The notes under the pieces were generated by a model that searched no databases, was not told where the DNA came from, and saw nothing but the letters and a program-made list of their open reading frames with translations. DNA of 64,000 bases from positions 969,137 through 1,033,136 of the forward strand of contig NZ_JAMTCI010000001.1 of assembly GCF_024171765.1 (NCBI RefSeq), in the 5' to 3' direction. This document shows positions 18,145-28,606 of the stretch, one piece after another (within the stretch, counting starts at the first letter, position 1; every line of letters starts with the position of its first letter). The stretch is from Williamsia deligens. GTDB taxonomy: Bacteria; Actinomycetota; Actinomycetes; Mycobacteriales; Mycobacteriaceae. The translations under genes were made by a program, and so were the position numbers.

Positions 18145-19329
18145 TCAGCGGAACGCGTCACGCCCCGTCAGGGCCTTGCCGACGGTGAGCTGGTGCATCT
18201 CGCTCGTACCCTCGTAGGTCAGCACCGACTCGAGGTTGTTGATGTGCCGGATCACCGGGTACTCCAACGTGATCCCGTTCGCGCCCAGGATCGTGCGGCA
18301 CTCGCGTGCGATCTGGATCGACTCACGCACGTTGTTCAGCTTGCCGGTGCTGATCTGCTCGGGACGGATCTCGCCGCGGTCCTTGATGCGGCCGAGGTGC
18401 ACGGCCAGCAGCTGACCCTTCCCCAGCTCGAGCGCCATGTCGGCGAGTTTCGCCTGGGTCAGCTGGTATCCCGACAGCGGCTTGTCGAAGACCTCGCGGT
18501 CGGCGGCATAGGAGATGGCGGTCTCCAGGCAGTCGCGAGCGGCGCCCAGCGATCCGAAGACGATGCCGAAGCGTGCCTCGTTCAGACAGCTCAGCGGCCC
18601 CTTGAGCCCGGTGACACCCGGGAGCATCGCCGACGCGGGCAGCCGCACGTCCTCCAGCACCAGCTCGGAGGTGACCGATGCGCGCAGCGAGAGCTTCCGG
18701 GTGATCTCCGGGGCGCTGAAACCCGGTGTGTCGGTGGGCACCACGAACCCGCGGATGCCGCGGGGCCCCTCGTCGAGGTCGGTGCGGGCCCAGATGACGG
18801 CGACGTCGGCGACGGACCCGTTGGTGATCCACATCTTCGAGCCGTTGAGCACCCAGTCGTCGCCGTCGCGCTTGGCGTTGGTGCGCATGCCGCCGGGGTT
18901 CGAGCCGTAGTCGGCCTCGGTGAGACCGAAGCAGCCGATGGCCTGGCCCGCCGACATCTTCGGCAGCCACTCGTCCTTCTGCTCGTCGCTGCCGAACGCG
19001 TGGATGGCGAACATCGCCAGCGACCCCTGCACGGAGACGAAGCTGCGCAGGCCGGAGTCGACGGCCTCGAGCTCCTGGCAGGCGAGGCCGTAGGTGGTGG
19101 CCGACATGCCGGCGCACCCGTACCCGGTGAGGTGCATGCCGAACAGCCCGAGCTCGCCGAGCTCGCCGGCGAGCTCCCGCACCGGCAGGTGGGCGTTCTC
19201 GAACCACTCGCCGACGTGGGGGCGGAGCTTCTCGTCGCCGAAGCGACGGACGGTGTCCCGGATCTCCCGCTCGTCGGCGTCGAGGATGTCGTCGAACGCG
19301 AACAGGTCACCGATCGTCTGAGCGGACAT
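18145..19329 (-). CDS. Acyl-CoA dehydrogenase, glutaryl-CoA dehydrogenase-like, 394 aa
   Basis: A flavoenzyme of the acyl-CoA dehydrogenase family. The segments CFGLTEADYGSNPGGM and KMWITNGSVADVAVIWART bind FAD and substrate, and the C-terminal YEGTSEMHQL places the catalytic base Glu near residue 373. The GKALTGRDAF ending closely resembles glutaryl-CoA dehydrogenases (decarboxylating, lysine/tryptophan breakdown), though it could act on another short acyl-CoA. The Arg that binds the glutaryl carboxylate cannot be confirmed by eye. ATG 19329 is preferred over the upstream GTG because the GAGGGA site then has normal spacing. Confidence 0.87.
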   Translation of the reverse strand: MSAQTIGDLFAFDDILDADEREIRDTVRRFGDEKLRPHVGEWFENAHLPVRELAGELGELGLFGMHLTGYGCAGMSATTYGLACQELEAVDSGLRSFVSVQGSLAMFAIHAFGSDEQKDEWLPKMSAGQAIGCFGLTEADYGSNPGGMRTNAKRDGDDWVLNGSKMWITNGSVADVAVIWARTDLDEGPRGIRGFVVPTDTPGFSAPEITRKLSLRASVTSELVLEDVRLPASAMLPGVTGLKGPLSCLNEARFGIVFGSLGAARDCLETAISYAADREVFDKPLSGYQLTQAKLADMALELGKGQLLAVHLGRIKDRGEIRPEQISTGKLNNVRESIQIARECRTILGANGITLEYPVIRHINNLESVLTYEGTSEMHQLTVGKALTGRDAFR

Positions 19330-19387
19330 CAGCGTCACTCCCTCTCGTGTGGAACTCGATCCACACTAACCCCGGCACAATGGGGAG

Positions 19388-19552
19388 ATGACCGACCGCG
19401 AATCCAAGGTGTGCGAGGTGTGCGGCCGCCCGTTCACCAACCGGAAGCGGTGGAACTCCCGCGGCCAGTGGGACGAGGTGCGCTACTGCTCGCAGTCCTG
19501 CCGGCGCGCGGCCCGCCGGTTGCGCCGGAGTGGAGACCGTCCCGCGTCCTGA
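19388..19552 (+). CDS. DUF2256-type zinc-finger protein, 54 aa
   Basis: A tiny basic protein: CEVCGRPFTNRKRWN followed by WDEVRYCSQSCRRAARR. The four cysteines (C-x2-C near residues 9-12 and C-x3-C near 35-39) should bind one zinc, as in the DUF2256 family; the function of that family is unknown. The start has a CACAAT box exactly at -12 to -7 and GGGGAG directly before the ATG, so leaderless initiation is likely. It is divergent from the acyl-CoA dehydrogenase and is the last gene before the lower-GC island. Confidence 0.8.
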   Translation: MTDRESKVCEVCGRPFTNRKRWNSRGQWDEVRYCSQSCRRAARRLRRSGDRPAS

Positions 19553-19563
19553 CCTGAAGTCAT

Positions 19564-19713
19564 TCATCGAGCAAGGTGCGGGCGCTTGACGGCTGCGCGC
19601 TCAAGGATTCGCGTGACCGACGGCTTAATGGCATCCTCGCGACGCCACCCGAGATGACTCTCAGTCGGGTTGTAGCCCCGCCGATCGTCGATCAGCGAGA
19701 GGTCGCCCGCACT
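19564..19713 (-). pseudogene. Open frame after the HEPN-like gene, possible frameshifted C-terminus
   Basis: Just past the TAG of the 391-aa gene, a different frame stays open for about 50 codons to a TGA at 19564, reading ...LSLIDDRRGYNPTESHLGW and on to ...AVKRPHLAR. I count G or C at the third position in roughly three quarters of its codons, which looks coding. There is no in-frame ATG, GTG or TTG near its beginning. The simplest reading is that the gene at 19712 once continued here and a one-base slip ended it early. It could also be chance. Confidence 0.35.
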
Positions 19714-20887
19714 ATCGAGGGTCCAGCCAGTCCCGGACCAGCTGATCGTTGACTTCGTTTCTATCGAGCGTCTTGTCGGCCTCCAACGCTGCCTTGAGGC
19801 GGGCCACGAGATCGATGTCGACACTCCCAAGCAACGGCGTGCGCTTCTTCGGTTGCCTCGTCGGCTGAACCGCGAGCTTTTCTCTCGGGAACAGGTCGAC
19901 CAGATCGATCATTTGCTCGTAGCGGACCTGTATCGGATCACCCTTGTTGAACTTCCACGGGATCACCCGCAGCTTGGTTGCGCTGTCGGCCTCGCCGTAG
20001 TGGTGGACGAAGTCGTTCCTGATCAAACGAATATCACCGAAGAAGTCAGACGTTATGTCATTCTTGCCCAACGCATCCGGTTCCGGCAGCGACCGGTTGA
20101 AGAACTCGGCGAGCCGCGGCCTGAACTGTTCATCCCAGATTGCGTGCATGTAGGTGAACCACTGGGCGTACTCGATCGACTGCATCTCGGGGTAGTACTC
20201 AGTCTCGCCGAAGCCGCCGCCCGCGATAGCCAGGTTGGTCCCTGAGTTAATCGCAGAAATAAAGTGCTGCATGTGAACGCGTCCTGGGCCTGGGGTGTTC
20301 GCGTAGAACCGCCTCTCCTCCGGGATCAACGCCGCCTGCATGGGTGATGTCTCCGCCGGAACGTTTGCACGGAAACTGAAGTAGTGCCCGATATCCCGGG
20401 ATCTTCCGCCTTCCAGAAACCGCTTGTGTTGCTGCTCCCACCCCTCGACACGCTGCGTGCTCGGGAAGTGTGCGGACATCGACATGAATAGCGAGATCAT
20501 GAACGTTCGTTCTAGCTCGGCAATCAGATCCTCGACCACCTCGACTTCGTCTACGACCGTCGCCTGAAGCACAGGTACAACGACTCGAACCGCGTCCAGC
20601 AGGGTCTTTATGTCGGCATCGAATGTTCGTCCTGTCCGCAGACCTGCCGCCGCTTCGATCACATCCTCGAGCTGGCTCTTCAGGACCGTCCCAGCCATCG
20701 GTGGGTCCGCCTCCGCGATCAAGTTGATCGGGTCTGCAAGGTGAATGACGAGCAGTTGTTGACCTTGCACTGGGATTGAGTTTCCCGCCGATGCGAAAGC
20801 GGCGAACGATCTTAAAATCTGCTCCGTCATGTTTTGACTGTTTTCGAGCACCTTCAACCACCGCGAGGCCCTGCTCTGCCTGTTCAT
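19712..20887 (-). CDS. Unrecognised accessory protein with a HEPN-like Arg-Asn-x3-His motif, 391 aa
   Basis: I do not recognise this gene as a whole. It is mostly helical, with no signal peptide or membrane segment. Near residue 300 it has DIRLIRNDFVHHYGEAD, in which Arg, polar Asn and His four residues later match the catalytic R-x4-H motif of HEPN-superfamily RNases; the surrounding helix and following Gly are also typical. An Asn-Ser-Gly-rich middle (ISAINSGTNLAIAGGGFGE) and a basic C-terminus (RQPKKRTP) are notable. Its DNA is clearly lower in GC than the neighbours, with codons such as TTA and AGA near the start. No obvious antitoxin gene is adjacent. A defence or regulatory RNase role is an inference. 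Confidence 0.6.
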   Translation of the reverse strand: MNRQSRASRWLKVLENSQNMTEQILRSFAAFASAGNSIPVQGQQLLVIHLADPINLIAEADPPMAGTVLKSQLEDVIEAAAGLRTGRTFDADIKTLLDAVRVVVPVLQATVVDEVEVVEDLIAELERTFMISLFMSMSAHFPSTQRVEGWEQQHKRFLEGGRSRDIGHYFSFRANVPAETSPMQAALIPEERRFYANTPGPGRVHMQHFISAINSGTNLAIAGGGFGETEYYPEMQSIEYAQWFTYMHAIWDEQFRPRLAEFFNRSLPEPDALGKNDITSDFFGDIRLIRNDFVHHYGEADSATKLRVIPWKFNKGDPIQVRYEQMIDLVDLFPREKLAVQPTRQPKKRTPLLGSVDIDLVARLKAALEADKTLDRNEVNDQLVRDWLDPR

Positions 20888-21152
20888 GGGGCAAGTATCG
20901 ACGCGAGCACTGGCGTCGAACCCGATCTAAGAGACCGGTGTCCTACGAACGGCCGACCCAGCTGATCGCCATATAAAGCAACCCGATTGATTGCAGCAGC
21001 GCGGAGGAGTCTCGGTGTTCTTTGACTAATTTGCGACGTTGCATGTCGGCTTCCCGTGCTGCTGGAGAACGCCTGGCTGCGAACCAGTAGGCGGTTTACG
21101 CACCTGTTTAAGGCGCAGCGGACGCCCATCACGTGGCGCCCGGACCGATCGG
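20888..21152. other. Lower-GC intergenic stretch right of the accessory gene
   Basis: This 265-bp stretch separates the HEPN-like gene from the cholesterol oxidase stop codon. It contains AT-richer patches (ATATAAAGCAACCCGATTGATTG) and no convincing gene, tRNA or direct-repeat boundary. The promoter of the accessory gene should lie at its left end. The composition suggests it belongs to the same transferred segment. Confidence 0.5.
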
Positions 21153-22757
21153 TCAGAACACAGACCCGACGTCGGACGGGATGATTCGGTCGATTGCCCA
21201 TTCGGCGATCGCCGCGATCGTCATCGACGGGTTGCACGCCGCGGTGTTGCCCGGCATCAGGGCGCCGTCGAGGACGTAGAGGCCCCGGTGCCCGTTCACA
21301 CGCCCCTGCAGGTCACACACCACGTCCATCGGTGCGCCACCGAGCGGGTGCCAGGTGGACGGGTAGGGCTTGAACGTGTCGAACAGGATCGACGACGGGC
21401 CGGCGATCTTCTGCGTCAGCGGGCCGATCCGGGTGTCCTGCAGGACGTGGTCCCCGTCGCGTGGCCAGCGCAGCACCGCCTGGTCCTGGGCGCGGTCCCA
21501 CACGAACGTCCCGCGGGCGTCGCTGACGCCGTAGCCGACCATCATCGTGGTCCGCGGATCGGTGCCCAGCGTCGGGATCGACGCCTGGATGACCGTCGCG
21601 GCCTTCCGGGGGTCACCGGACCAGTCGAGGCTGCCGAACACCACCGGCCCACCCTGCTGTGTGCCCATGCTGTCGGCGGGGTCGGTCCACGTGTAGATGC
21701 GGTCGCCGTTGCTGCCCCACCCGGTACCGAGACCGGCCGGCAGGTCCGGGATGGTGTCGTGCGCCTGGGCGCGCATGAGCAGCTTGGTCGTGTTCATCGT
21801 CCCCGCGGCCATCACCAGAGCCCGCGTCGTCATCTCGATGGTCTCGAGGACTCCGCCGGACGACGAGATGCGGTTGACCCGGACCCTCCAGCGCCCGTCG
21901 CGCTCGCGGATCACGTCGGTGACCTCATGCTGCAGGCGCAGGTCGAGCCGGCCGGTGGCCTCCGCCTGCTTGATGTAGGTGACGTCGACGGTGTGCTTGC
22001 CACCGTTGTTCACCCCGAGTGATCCGGCACCGTTCGTGTAGGACTTGCGCATCTCACCGCGCAGCTCGGCGAGCGCGTAGCTCCAGTCGATGGGCATCGG
22101 GATCTTCGACACCGGCAACCCGGCCCGGATGCAGTGATCCCGGAACACCCGGGGCGCGAGGTACTCCGGCGAGCTGATCAACGCGTCCGGCGCTGTCTCG
22201 ATCCGGAGCATCTTCGAGACGCGCGGGTAGTAGGTCCGGGCGAGCAGGCCGTAGTCGATGCGCGAGGGGAACTGCGTGTAGAAGACCGACTCGATCGGCT
22301 GCAGCGTCATCCCCTGGTACACGAGCGATCCGCCGCCGAGCCCCGCCGCACACAACGCCGACATGTTCTCGCCCGCAACGGCTTCGATCAGACCCACGTA
22401 GGGATCGACGACGAGCGGCCGCCCGAACAGTGTCGGCGCCGACCGGTACCAGAGCATCCGCTTGTCGGGGTTCGTCGGGGTGGCGAAGGTGTTCGCGTTC
22501 GGGCCGGTCGCCCACCGACGGCCACGCTCGAGCATGGTGACCGGGACACCCGCCTGGGTCAGACGCAGCGCGGTGACGCCGCCGCCGAAGCCGGACCCGA
22601 TGACCACGACGCGGTGGTCCTCGCGTCGGAACGGGATGCGGCCCGGCCGCGGGGCGGTGGGCTCGGCGACCGCCCTCCCCGCGACGCCCGCACCTGCGGC
22701 CACCGCAGCCGCCGCCCCGGCACCCGCGATGAACGTCCTGCGTCCGAATCCACCCAC
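21153..22757 (-). CDS. choA: Cholesterol oxidase (GMC-type flavoenzyme), Tat-exported, 534 aa
   Basis: This enzyme oxidises cholesterol and related 3-beta-hydroxysteroids with O2 to 4-en-3-ones and H2O2. A twin-arginine signal (GGFGRRTFIAGAG) and Ala-rich region predict export. FAD binds at VVVIGSGFGGGVTALRL. The active-site His is in TWHPLGGAPMD and the Asn in NTAACNPSMTIAA, as in class I (non-covalent) Streptomyces/Rhodococcus enzymes. GTG 22757 is preferred because the longer TTG start at 22796 would place the operator palindrome inside the coding region; neither has a clear ribosome binding site. It follows a TetR gene and a lipase-like gene on the same strand. Confidence 0.88.
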   Translation of the reverse strand: MGGFGRRTFIAGAGAAAAVAAGAGVAGRAVAEPTAPRPGRIPFRREDHRVVVIGSGFGGGVTALRLTQAGVPVTMLERGRRWATGPNANTFATPTNPDKRMLWYRSAPTLFGRPLVVDPYVGLIEAVAGENMSALCAAGLGGGSLVYQGMTLQPIESVFYTQFPSRIDYGLLARTYYPRVSKMLRIETAPDALISSPEYLAPRVFRDHCIRAGLPVSKIPMPIDWSYALAELRGEMRKSYTNGAGSLGVNNGGKHTVDVTYIKQAEATGRLDLRLQHEVTDVIRERDGRWRVRVNRISSSGGVLETIEMTTRALVMAAGTMNTTKLLMRAQAHDTIPDLPAGLGTGWGSNGDRIYTWTDPADSMGTQQGGPVVFGSLDWSGDPRKAATVIQASIPTLGTDPRTTMMVGYGVSDARGTFVWDRAQDQAVLRWPRDGDHVLQDTRIGPLTQKIAGPSSILFDTFKPYPSTWHPLGGAPMDVVCDLQGRVNGHRGLYVLDGALMPGNTAACNPSMTIAAIAEWAIDRIIPSDVGSVF

Positions 22758-22777
22758 TGTCGACCCCCGCGTCGTCT

Positions 22778-22793
22778 CGTGACCTGTGTCACG
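22778..22793. promoter_or_regulatory. Palindrome CGTGACCTGTGTCACG upstream of cholesterol oxidase
   Basis: Perfect 6-bp arms with a 4-bp centre lie between the TetR stop and the preferred cholesterol oxidase start. A TTGACA-like -35 (reading leftward from about 22828) precedes it, so a bound repressor would sit over the start of the transcript. The adjacent TetR is the obvious candidate. The sequence does not match the KstR or KstR2 consensus as I remember them. Confidence 0.5.
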
Positions 22794-22822
22794 CAAAAAC
22801 TAGACAGAACGCAGCGCGAGTG

Positions 22823-24408: not shown

Positions 24409-24694
24409 CGAGAACCTCCTCCGGCGTGGTCGGCAGTCCGTCCGCGGGCACTTCTTGCCGCACCGGACGCCGGTCCCGGTCTCTGCAGTGTGCCCCGATC
24501 CATCCGTGGCCACCCAACTTTTGTGATCCTTCGGGACGCCGGGGGTCGACGGTTGTGTGGATCACCGGCACCCGGGGACTGTGACGTGGCTGGGTGGTGA
24601 TGCCCGCGTCGTCGCCCCGGCGACGATGATGGGAAACTCTTCTGCGGTCGGCTCCCGGTCGGGAGATGTCGGTTCGAGCAGCGGAAGGACCCTG
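24409..24694. other. Intergenic region between the divergent esterase and NRPS-like genes
   Basis: This 286-bp stretch must hold the promoters of both divergent genes. The NRPS-like reading frame is open upstream through part of it (ATG codons near 24557 and 24626), so the synthetase could be up to 46 residues longer. I see no strong hairpin or repeated operator. Confidence 0.4.
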
Positions 24695-27600
24695 GTGGAC
24701 GTCACCGCCAACGCGTCGCAACACCCGTCCCCACCGCCGTACCCGATCCCGTCGCACTTCCTCGCCGGCGACCGCGCGCCGAGTCCGCGCACCCTGATCG
24801 ACATCCTCCACGCGACGGCGGAGACGTTCCCCCAGGCGCCCGCGATCGACGACGGCGAGGCCGTCCTCAGCTACGCCGAGCTGATCGAGGCCGTCGACGA
24901 GGGCGCGCTGTGGATGGCGCGGCAGGGCATCCGGCGCGGCGATCGCGTCGGCATCCGCATGCCGTCGGGATCACGGGCCCTCTACCTCGCGATCCTCTCG
25001 GCCATCGCCGCCGGTGCGGCCTATGTCCCTGTCGACGTCGACGACCCGGACGAGCGCGCGGACCTGGTGTTCGGTGAGGCGCAGGTCGCCGCCGTCGTGG
25101 ACTCGGTCGGTCTGCACCGTGCGGCGGCGGTCCGCGAGCGGGACGCTCCCACCGACCCCGACCTGACCGAGCTGGCCCCCCGCACCACCGACGACGCCTG
25201 GGTCATCTTCACGTCCGGGTCGACGGGTACGCCGAAAGGTGTTGCGGTGACGCATCGCAACGCCGCGGCCTTCGTCGACGCCGAGGCGCAGCTGTTCCTG
25301 CAGGACGAGCCGATCGCCCCGGGTGATCGCGTGCTCGCCGGGCTGTCGGTGGCGTTCGACGCCTCCTGCGAGGAGATGTGGTTGGCGTGGCGGCACGGCG
25401 CCTGCCTGGTGCCGGCACCCCGATCGCTGGTGCGCAGCGGGATGGATCTCGGCCCGTGGCTGGTCGCCCGCGACATCACGGTGGTCTCGACTGTGCCCAC
25501 ACTGGCGTCGTTGTGGCCGGCCGAGGCACTCGAGGCGGTCCGTCTGCTCATCTTCGGCGGCGAGGCGTGCCCACCCGAGCTCGGTGAGCGCCTGGCCGTC
25601 GCCGGGCGCGAGGTGTGGAACACCTACGGGCCCACCGAGGCGACGGTGGTCGCATGCGCCGCACCGCTCACCGGTTCCGGGCCCGTCCGCATCGGCCTGC
25701 CGCTCGCCGGATGGGATCTCGCCGTCGTCGACCCCGCCGGCCTGCCCGTGGCGGAGGGCGAGACCGGGGAACTCGTCATCGGTGGCGTGGGCCTCGCGCG
25801 CTACCTCGACCCCGCCAAGGACGCCGAGAAGTACTCGCCGATGCCGTCGCTGGGGTGGGACCGCGCCTACCGCAGCGGTGACCTCGTCCGACTCGACCCC
25901 GAGGGTCTGGTGTTCGCCGGACGCGCCGACGACCAGGTGAAGGTCGGCGGCAGGCGCATCGAGCTCGGCGAGATCGACACCGCACTGCAGAACCTGCCCG
26001 GGGTCGGCGGGGCGGCGGCCGCCGTGCGGACCACGGCCGCCGGGAACTCCGTGCTCATCGGGTACCTGGTGTCCACCGATCCCGACTTCGACGTCGAGGC
26101 CGCGCACGACCTGCTCTCCGAGCGGCTCCCCGCGGCGCTGGTACCGCGCCTCGCACTCGTCGACGAGCTGCCGACCCGCACCTCCGGCAAGGTGGACCGC
26201 GCCGCACTGCCGTGGCCCCTGCCCGGCTCCGCCGGGGGCGGCGAGGGCGACCTGTCCGCGACGGAGCGGTGGGTGGCCGACCGGTGGACCGCCGTCCTCG
26301 GGGTCACGATCACCGACGCCGACACCGACTTCTTCGCCGAGGGCGGGGGGTCGCTCGCCGCGGCCCAGCTCGTCACGGCGCTGCGCGAGCGGTATCCCGA
26401 GGTCACCGTCGCCGACCTCTACGACCACCCGCGGCTCGGTGCCCTCGCGGGCATGCTCGACGACTCGTCGCCGCAGGTCGCCGTCGAGCCGCGCACCGTC
26501 CGGCCCACCCCCCGGATCACCGGTGTCGCGCAGATCCTGCTGTCGGTACCGCTCACCACCCTCACCGGACTGCAGTGGGCGACGTGGCTGGGAGTCGCGA
26601 ACAACATCGCGGCGTCGGTCACGGACGTCCCGTGGCTGATCTCGGTGAACTGGTGGGTCCTGCTCGCCGCCTTCGTCGTGTTCATCACCCCGGTGGGCCG
26701 TATGGCCATCGCCGTCGGCGGATGTCGGCTGCTGCTCGCCGGTGTGCGGCCGGGGCGGTACCCCCGCGGTGGCGGCGTCCACCTCCGCCTGTGGGTGGCC
26801 GAGCGGCTCACCGAGGCCAGCGGCGCGGCGAACCTCGCGGGCGCACCGTGGATGATCTATTTCGCCCGGGCGTTGGGCGCGGACATCGGCCACGGCGTCG
26901 ACCTGCACACCCTCCCCCCGGTGACGGGGATGCTGTCGCTGGGCGACGGCTGCTCGATCGAGCCCGAGGTCGACCTCGCCGGGTGGTGGATCGACGGTGA
27001 CGTCGTCCACATCGGCGACGTCGAGATCGGCGAACGGGCCACCGTCGGTGCACGGTCCACCCTGCTGCCCGGTGCGCGGGTCGGACGCGACGCGATCGTC
27101 GCACCCGGGTCGGCGGTGCTCGGCAGGGTCAAGGCCCGCCAGCACTGGGCGGGTTCGCCCGCGGTGAAGACCGGCAAGGCGACGACCCACTGGCCCGCGC
27201 AGCGACCGCCGCGCGCCAGCGGGTGGGTCCCGGTCTACGGGCTGACGTCGATCCTGCTCGCCGGGATCCCGCTGATCGCGCTCGCGGCCGGTCTGGGTGT
27301 GATCGCCACGTGGGCGGTCCACGCCGATCGACTCCGCGATGTCGCCGTCCGCGCGCTGATCCTGCTCCCCGCGGCCACGCTGACGAGCCTGCTGGTGTTC
27401 GCGGCGATCACCGCGGGTGGCGTCCGCCTGCTGTCGATCGGTCTGCACCAGGGCTACCACCCCGTCCGCTCCCGGATCGGGTGGCAGGTGTGGGCGACGG
27501 AGCGGTTGATGGACTCCGCCCGCACCTATCTGTTCCCGCTGTACGCGAGCCTGCTGACGCCCGCGTGGTTCCGACTGCTCGGCGCCGACATCGGCACGGG

Positions 27601-28606
27601 CACCGAGATCAGCACCGCCCTGGTCATCCCGAAGTTCACCTCGGTCGGCGACGGCGCGTTCCTCGCCGACGACACGATGGTCGCGTCCTACGAACTGGGC
27701 GGCGGGTGGATCCACATCGACGAGGCGCGGATCGGCAAACGCGCGTTCCTCGGCAACTCCGGCATGACCGGCCCGGGCCGCAAGGTGCCGAAGAACAGCC
27801 TGGTGGCCGTCCTCTCGGCGACACCGGACAAGGCCAAGTCCGGGTCGAGCTGGCTCGGCAGTCCCCCGGTCCGCCTGCGTCGTGCGGTCGCCCCGACGGA
27901 CAGCTCACGCACCTTCGATCCCCCACTGCGGCTGAAGATCGCCCGCGGCGTGGTGGAGACGCTGCGGCTGATCCCGGTCATGATCTCGTTCGGGCTCGGG
28001 TTGTTCGTCCTGATCGGCCTGCAGTACATCGCGTCGCAGTCGAACTTCTGGCTCGCCGGACTGGTCAGCGGGCTGGTGCTGCTCGTGGCCGGGGCCGCCG
28101 CATGTTGCATCGCGGCGGCCGCCAAATGGCTGGTGGTGGGCCGGATCTCGGTGGGTGACCACCCGCTGTGGAGCTCGTTCGTCTGGCGCAACGAGCTGTC
28201 GGACGCGTTCGTCGAGACGGTGGCGGCGCCGTGGTTCGCCAACGCCGCCACCGGCACGCCGATCCTCAACCTGTGGCTGCGGATGCTCGGTGCCACCATC
28301 GGCCGCGGCGTCTGGTGCGAGACCTACTGGCTGCCCGAGGCCGACCTGGTGACCCTCGGTGACGGCGCCACCGTGCAACGCGGCTGCGTGGTGCAGACCC
28401 ACCTCTTCCACGACCGGGTCATGGCGATGGACGAGGTGCGGATCTCCGACGGCGCCACGCTCGGCCCGCACTGCGTGGCGCTCCCCGCGTCGGGTCTGGG
28501 CGAGTCCGCCACGGTGGGCCCGGCCTCGCTGGTGATGCGCGGGGACGTCGTGCCCGCGCACACCCGCTGGCAGGGCAACCCCATCGCCCCCTGGTCTGAT
28601 CGATGA
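24695..28606 (+). CDS. Pls/PosA-type NRPS-like membrane synthetase, 1303 aa
   Basis: The architecture is adenylation, carrier, then membrane condensing modules, as in epsilon-poly-lysine synthetase. The adenylation domain (about 30-500) has FTSGSTGTPKGVAVTH, NTYGPTEATVVA, YRSGDLVRLDP, GRADDQVKVGGRRIELGEID and the catalytic Lys in RTSGKVDRAALP. The carrier domain (about 515-585) carries the phosphopantetheine Ser in FFAEGGGSLAAAQL. The rest holds about six membrane helices and three left-handed-helix repeat blocks (VGDGAFLAD, LGDGATVQRG types) that form the amide-bond-making tandem domains of this family. The activated amino acid is unknown. GTG 24695 is chosen for GGAAGGA five bases upstream. 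Confidence 0.87.
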   Translation: MDVTANASQHPSPPPYPIPSHFLAGDRAPSPRTLIDILHATAETFPQAPAIDDGEAVLSYAELIEAVDEGALWMARQGIRRGDRVGIRMPSGSRALYLAILSAIAAGAAYVPVDVDDPDERADLVFGEAQVAAVVDSVGLHRAAAVRERDAPTDPDLTELAPRTTDDAWVIFTSGSTGTPKGVAVTHRNAAAFVDAEAQLFLQDEPIAPGDRVLAGLSVAFDASCEEMWLAWRHGACLVPAPRSLVRSGMDLGPWLVARDITVVSTVPTLASLWPAEALEAVRLLIFGGEACPPELGERLAVAGREVWNTYGPTEATVVACAAPLTGSGPVRIGLPLAGWDLAVVDPAGLPVAEGETGELVIGGVGLARYLDPAKDAEKYSPMPSLGWDRAYRSGDLVRLDPEGLVFAGRADDQVKVGGRRIELGEIDTALQNLPGVGGAAAAVRTTAAGNSVLIGYLVSTDPDFDVEAAHDLLSERLPAALVPRLALVDELPTRTSGKVDRAALPWPLPGSAGGGEGDLSATERWVADRWTAVLGVTITDADTDFFAEGGGSLAAAQLVTALRERYPEVTVADLYDHPRLGALAGMLDDSSPQVAVEPRTVRPTPRITGVAQILLSVPLTTLTGLQWATWLGVANNIAASVTDVPWLISVNWWVLLAAFVVFITPVGRMAIAVGGCRLLLAGVRPGRYPRGGGVHLRLWVAERLTEASGAANLAGAPWMIYFARALGADIGHGVDLHTLPPVTGMLSLGDGCSIEPEVDLAGWWIDGDVVHIGDVEIGERATVGARSTLLPGARVGRDAIVAPGSAVLGRVKARQHWAGSPAVKTGKATTHWPAQRPPRASGWVPVYGLTSILLAGIPLIALAAGLGVIATWAVHADRLRDVAVRALILLPAATLTSLLVFAAITAGGVRLLSIGLHQGYHPVRSRIGWQVWATERLMDSARTYLFPLYASLLTPAWFRLLGADIGTGTEISTALVIPKFTSVGDGAFLADDTMVASYELGGGWIHIDEARIGKRAFLGNSGMTGPGRKVPKNSLVAVLSATPDKAKSGSSWLGSPPVRLRRAVAPTDSSRTFDPPLRLKIARGVVETLRLIPVMISFGLGLFVLIGLQYIASQSNFWLAGLVSGLVLLVAGAAACCIAAAAKWLVVGRISVGDHPLWSSFVWRNELSDAFVETVAAPWFANAATGTPILNLWLRMLGATIGRGVWCETYWLPEADLVTLGDGATVQRGCVVQTHLFHDRVMAMDEVRISDGATLGPHCVALPASGLGESATVGPASLVMRGDVVPAHTRWQGNPIAPWSDR

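Follow-up and report, generated by a model that had tools for sequence, protein, structure and literature searches.

Bacterial immunity commonly employs HEPN RNases as effectors, and most of those described need a partner gene or a signal. The HEPN fold is an alpha-helical bundle of four helices with the motif at the end of helix 3, and RNase activity in the superfamily is metal-independent. HEPN-MNT toxin-antitoxin systems contain a HEPN protein with the Rx4H motif, and the ribbon-helix-helix (RHH), a strand-helix-helix module that binds DNA as a dimer, is a usual fold of antitoxins. The described system that comes closest to the locus examined here is Tha, a prophage-borne HEPN RNase of Staphylococcus aureus that acts against phages and is triggered by tail proteins (PMC11087260). 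Tha-1 has 301 aa and the motif R265NSIMH270, no domain is recognisable in its N-terminal part, and the H270A mutant has lost its anti-phage activity (PMC11087260).

Here we examined a gene for a 391-aa protein in a 64,000-nucleotide stretch of Williamsia deligens DNA (the window; Table 1). As far as the available description of Tha goes, the two are alike in several respects: each is a single protein borne on a mobile element, its N-terminal part matches no recognised domain, its HEPN domain contains R-N-x3-H, and it has no nucleotidyltransferase partner. Tha-1 ends at its HEPN domain, whereas the window protein continues into an extra RHH tail, and a comparison of the neighbours of 31 loci found no inhibitor gene like ith of Tha. 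Tha may serve as the closest working model, a likeness drawn from its published description rather than from its sequence. A HEPN domain with Rx4H is also shared with the HEPN-MNT toxin-antitoxin systems, but an MNT gene is absent among the neighbours of the window gene.

Table 1. Features of the island, its gene and the phage adaptor genes beside relatives (window positions unless a locus is named)
Feature	Position	Strand	Remarks
Inserted island	19554..21150	.	1,597 bp, GC 0.589; absent from genomes G002 and G006; no terminal repeats evident
Upstream non-coding part of island	20888..21150	.	263 bp; no convincing relative in the compared loci; nothing in Rfam at curated level
Downstream part of island, with the supposed tail frame	19554..19711	.	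158 bp; no relatives above chance
Flanking gene, DUF2256	19388..19552	+	PF10013
Flanking gene, GMC oxidoreductase	21153..22796	-	PF05199/PF00732
Gene, predicted HEPN-type RNase with RHH tail	19712..20887	-	391 aa; TAG stop 19712-19714; ORF intact
N-terminal region, residues 1-140	20468..20887	-	no Pfam domain; helical in low-confidence model (pLDDT 44.7); candidate sensor
Putative HEPN core, residues 235-340	19868..20185	-	family alignments and hhalign
[D/E]-x3-R motif, D252 to R256	20120..20134	-	Ex3[KR] motif of HEPN domains (available text of PMC3710099); 26/26 rows
Rx4H motif, R290-N-D-F-V-H295	20003..20020	-	R and H in 26/26 rows; N in 19/26 (H 3, Q 2, T 2)
RHH-like C-terminal tail, residues 345-391	19715..19855	-	profile match to RHH_1 at 93.7% (hhalign); 0.06-0.59% in nine pairings of unrelated segments
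Adaptor beside L011, intact, with second phage gene	L060:7777-8679	-	PF07030, PHROG 195
Adaptor beside L014, shortened	L063:1395-1610	-	PF07030, PHROG 195
Adaptor beside L004, broken	L004:4463-4795	+	PF07030, PHROG 195

A low-GC island with an empty counterpart

A sequence-only reading of the window had picked out the segment by its lower GC, and the composition bears this out. The gene itself has a GC of 0.580, and the other sampled 1,597-bp stretches of the window all lie at 0.671 or above (mean 0.700, sd 0.021). Eight genomes of the same genus, the window's own among them, were searched with the DNA on either side of the island (18145-19560 and 21153-22796). Two of the other seven have the flanks directly adjoining: in base-level comparison the island's place is taken by 1 bp in G002 and by 12 bp in G006. 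The empty site in both falls between the stop codons of the DUF2256 gene and the GMC oxidoreductase gene, and the limits of the island were set relative to G002. The remaining five genomes say nothing on the empty site because their best flank matches lie far from each other, are short or fall on different contigs.

These comparisons support the description of the low-GC segment as a sharp-edged insertion. The earlier proposal of a foreign single-gene module is supported by the empty site, by the patchy occurrence of the gene (23 of 401 genomes) and by the homes of its relatives, some on plasmids and others next to remnants of prophages. The direction of the event is not proved by two empty sites, and gain by insertion is favoured over loss from G002 and G006 because of the composition and the patchy occurrence. 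The same reading had seen no integrase or repeat. Among the repeats listed for 19400-21300, neither a terminal repeat nor a target-site duplication stands out, and a Pfam scan of the six neighbouring window genes detected no integrase. The families recognised among the neighbours are DUF2256, acyl-CoA dehydrogenase, GMC oxidoreductase, TetR and alpha/beta hydrolase. Elsewhere in the window, 24557-28606 on the plus strand holds a 1,349-aa ORF that by eye resembles an adenylation/carrier protein with transferase-like repeats.

With respect to the non-coding parts of the island, Rfam returned nothing near a curated score that would indicate a conserved regulatory RNA, and the upstream DNA of relatives is similar between close pairs only (L009/L010 and L025/L027). 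The single gene is a minus-strand ORF whose product contains, as first read, the R-N-x3-H motif, here within LIRNDFVHH. The window protein has no match of any weight in Pfam, NCBIfam or PADLOC. In PADLOC-DB 2.0.0 it remained without a match up to E 10, and the 26 aligned family members gave single weak matches, the best of them to Cas13a (E 0.0047) and others to a CARF-HEPN model (0.027) and DpdE (0.036). A match of the window protein to phrog_14548 (E 0.0004) was not used because only one of the 26 family members shares it, and an APAF-1-like winged helix (E 0.16) was likewise set aside.

Conservation and profile similarity of the putative HEPN core

The main family alignment comprises 26 rows, the window protein and 25 relatives. 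Left out of it were L010 (89% like L009), L020 (near-identical to L007), L032 and L033 (second pieces of L025 and L026), a relative lying in two overlapping frames in genome G376, which is a frame-broken copy (L022/L031), and an N-terminally truncated remnant of another family branch in a genome of the same genus (L003:1501-1851, genome G003). Only six columns are invariant, namely W251, R256, A260, R290, H295 and W311. The conservation of the motif R and H in homologues, which the first reading had left to be checked, is complete in these rows, and both residues were also invariant in an earlier 10-row alignment that included L003 and L010. The residue at position 291, directly after the R, is polar throughout, and position 252 is D or E in every row, four residues ahead of the invariant R256. 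When three remoter sequences were added, R was retained in 29 of 29 and H in 28 of 29, the exception having K in the H column and H next to it. This pattern matches the one given for HEPN domains in PMC3710099: Rx4-6H, in which the R is followed by a polar position, mostly N, D or H, and further upstream an acidic position that is conserved and typically part of Ex3[KR].

The same text proposes a binding role for some HEPN domains and takes the loss of Rx4-6H as the mark of non-catalytic members (PMC3710099). The window protein could accordingly be a non-catalytic or regulatory RNA- or DNA-binding protein that keeps the motif for structural reasons, a reading that the predicted status of the family's RNase activity also allows. 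The retention of R and H in all 26 rows argues against it, and we consider it improbable.

Profile comparisons were made with hhalign against HEPN_Swt1 (PF18731; 13 sequences) and HEPN_RiboL-PSP (PF18735; six sequences, one of them under the family cut-off). The core matched HEPN_Swt1 with a probability of 16.2% and a score of 24.2, and HEPN_RiboL-PSP with 8.6% and 23.2, while the N-terminal, middle and tail segments gave 0.06-0.42% with these two families. With HEPN_Swt1, the aligned stretch spans W-x3-F/Y-R...R-N-x3-H, and with HEPN_RiboL-PSP it is again the motif region that aligns. For comparison, HEPN_Swt1 and HEPN_RiboL-PSP, two accepted families, match each other at 12.2% with a score of 24.9. 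An enlarged core alignment gave 7.8% (score 21.1) and 11.3% (score 23.4), respectively. The probabilities are thus low in absolute terms (8-16%), and the added sequences lowered the HEPN_Swt1 value from 16.2 to 7.8%. The scores nevertheless exceed those of all column shuffles (100 per family), whose maxima were 19.6 for HEPN_Swt1 and 19.1 for HEPN_RiboL-PSP. Single members match both families below the Pfam cut-off (best E 0.071 for HEPN_Swt1 and 0.036 for HEPN_RiboL-PSP), and in the same scan of the 26 members Phage_Nu1 (E 0.0027, two members) and DprA_WH (0.0096) rank above them. The Swt1 loci listed are mostly long open frames, most of them about 900-2,100 aa, unlike the window protein.

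Two AlphaFold models from three-sequence alignments are poor (pLDDT 44.7 and 45.9), and in these low-confidence models helices are placed at residues 233-264 and 278-297. The low absolute probabilities, the mixed weak Pfam matches and the poor models would be in keeping with R-N-x3-H being a chance match in an unrelated helical family. However, the alignment has no more than six invariant columns and R and H are two of them, the upstream HEPN motif is likewise conserved in every row, and the real scores lie above 200 shuffles, which leaves a chance match very improbable. HEPN membership of the core is instead supported, though not proved, because the core resembles two HEPN families about as much as those families resemble each other. 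The proposed HEPN assignment has therefore gained in strength from the invariant R290 and H295, the [D/E]252-x3-R256 motif and the shuffle comparison, and the prediction that the window protein is a HEPN-type RNase is well supported at the level of sequence.

The C-terminal RHH-like module

The last 47 residues of the window protein align with 25 sequences of RHH_1/CopG (PF01402) at 93.7%, with an E value of 1.8e-07 for the pair, whereas the unrelated pairings stay below 1% (Table 1). A profile comparison with PDB sequences gave ParG (E 0.049) and NikR (E 1.6), both of them RHH proteins, although neither match is significant alone. CopG-type repressors are stand-alone proteins, whereas in the window protein the module forms a tail on an RNase-type protein. 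In 24 of the 26 rows the protein ends 4-16 residues past the Trp387 column, the window protein at 4; the other two, L028 and L030, are short and have no tail. L009 too belongs to the short forms, its aligned Trp lying outside an RHH-like module, and the tail is likewise lacking in the short relative L010. On these similarities, what truly closes the window protein is a complete RHH-like module. With the family profile, the RHH tail also came up in three other genomes (L056-L058), where it terminates another kind of protein; in L056, the one of the three that was scanned, Pfam recognised cNMP_binding followed by RHH_1, both above cut-off.

In the sequence-only reading the neighbouring frame 19564-19713, open for 49 codons, had instead looked coding and was taken as the possible C-terminus of a defence gene, lost by a frameshift. 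A longer C-terminus in relatives would have favoured this, but they end in substantially the same place, and the window protein already closes on a complete module. Among 101 genomes the frame itself was the only strong match, the next best having an E value of 0.007 per genome, which is chance level, and none was found in 72,556 plasmid records. At the three codon positions its GC is 0.70/0.54/0.70 and does not show the gene's pattern of 0.60/0.39/0.74. Open frames of this length are common in the window: when 150-nt pieces are drawn at random, 57% prove open in a randomly chosen frame. The frameshift was rejected on these grounds, and its probability is close to negligible.

Distribution and genomic contexts of the family

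At the limits used, relatives occur in 23 of 401 genomes of the same taxonomic family, the window's own included, and in nine of 31 genera. The closest, L011, has 51% identity, and a relative on a genome contig of Mycolicibacterium sp. P9-22 (L004) has 37%. Eight plasmid records carry a relative, seven from Rhodococcus and one from Mycolicibacterium, and a search of 50,697 phage records found none. In a viral contig collection, a relative is present on three near-identical contigs (one base apart), where its neighbours are a replication initiator that passes the cut-off of PF23343 and an FtsK-like gene that scores below cut-off; when this collection was scanned with the window protein alone or with three other sub-alignments, no relatives came up. 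The family profile matched six of 396 genomes of the phylum: the window's own, three by the tail only, G584, which has a core relative outside the taxonomic family, and G517, whose match resembles elongation factor Ts and was dropped. A protein of a Pantoea plasmid, reached through the G584 relative, has the same core. This short relative (L103:3917-4528, Pantoea ananatis plasmid pOC5aB) is adjoined, according to the annotation, by a retron-type HNH endonuclease and an ATP-binding gene, a pair that we take to be Septu-like.

Neighbours were clustered for 31 loci (22 genome regions, L004-L010, L092 and the window). No antitoxin gene had been seen at the outset, and this clustering of predicted neighbours likewise revealed no conserved partner or antitoxin gene. 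The clusters found were of recombinase type (six and five loci), ABC, IS30, acyl-CoA dehydrogenase and HTH (three loci each). Six plasmid regions share no neighbour; they contain recombinases, IS30, an annotated Swt1-HEPN, TIGR02391, DUF3644, an N-6 methylase and NYN. Defence-type genes lie near several relatives, namely HsdM (L064), Mrr (L061), Swt1-HEPN (L009), an N-6 methylase (L010) and the retron-type HNH and ATP-binding pair of the Pantoea plasmid.

The lack of a conserved separate antitoxin gene and the plasmid location of many relatives would also suit a one-gene addiction module of the toxin-antitoxin type, which would stabilise its carrier plasmids or islands rather than act against phages. 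In such a module the HEPN core would act as toxin, while a built-in antitoxin and repressor would be provided by the RHH tail or else by the N-terminal part, in keeping with the RHH being commonly an antitoxin fold. However, the tail is not an obligatory antitoxin, because the short relatives do without it, and the gene caller used for the clustering was crude and would miss very small or RNA antitoxins. We regard an addiction module as unlikely.

The same gene caller overlooked an association that emerged from DNA comparison of the loci. Downstream of the gene in L011, L014 and L004, on the same strand and starting after 172, 78 and 53 bp, respectively, lies one and the same phage head-tail adaptor gene, in three different genera. 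By its family the adaptor is of the Mu gp36 type, and "Mu-like" refers here to the adaptor family only. Four of 251 genomes searched have this adaptor inside prophages, three of them with no HEPN gene there and the fourth being that of L011. L013 lies near two genes that are also present in one of the prophages lacking the HEPN gene. Remnants of prophage structural genes stand beside L011, L014, L004 and L013. L060 (the region of L011) and L004 both adjoin genes that we take to resemble comM and dprA. The simplest reading of the L011/L014/L004 clade is that the gene was prophage cargo and that the prophages decayed around it. For the window island we infer such an origin only by extension, because neither a remnant of the adaptor gene nor any other recognisable phage gene was found in it.

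Discussion

The explanation that we prefer, and to which we give about an even chance, is a one-gene, mobile-element-borne HEPN RNase effector with an RHH tail that would act in the manner of Tha. The island would be a horizontally acquired single-gene module encoding a three-part endoribonuclease of the HEPN superfamily. Sensing or regulation would best be assigned to the N-terminal part (~220 residues, without a known domain). The HEPN core would provide an active site of R290 and H295, supported by D252 and R256 and presumably located where two identical subunits meet. For the C-terminal RHH tail, dimerisation and DNA binding are the most likely roles, plausibly at the gene's own promoter, which would keep expression low. 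The scenario that we find most likely has the protein silent in a healthy cell; a phage or competing element sensed via the N-terminal part would then trigger RNA cleavage and a stop of growth. The outcome would be abortive infection or superinfection exclusion, as for Tha of Staphylococcus prophages.

A more far-reaching version, which we put forward tentatively and think clearly less probable than not, is that the relatives form an undescribed family of self-contained one-gene immune RNases, combining sensor, HEPN RNase and RHH repressor in one polypeptide. Such a protein would repress its own promoter until an invader releases it, and the family would have begun as prophage cargo beside the head-tail adaptor and passed from there to plasmids and to chromosomal islands with no phage genes. 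The literature searched does not describe a HEPN-RHH protein, and "undescribed" is provisional, as subscription papers were mostly outside its scope. The terms RHH, ribbon-helix-helix and MetJ are absent from the available text of PMC3710099, and none of the titles listed for HEPN, mycobacter, RNase and abortive infection concerns such a protein.

If the preferred explanation is true, the window protein would be a compact single-gene form of HEPN effector with its own RHH module. It belongs to a protein family that has no name in the searched libraries and that mobile elements have spread patchily (23 of the 401 genomes sampled) through a host family that includes Mycolicibacterium and Rhodococcus. 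A compact site with a known empty counterpart makes the window gene directly testable.
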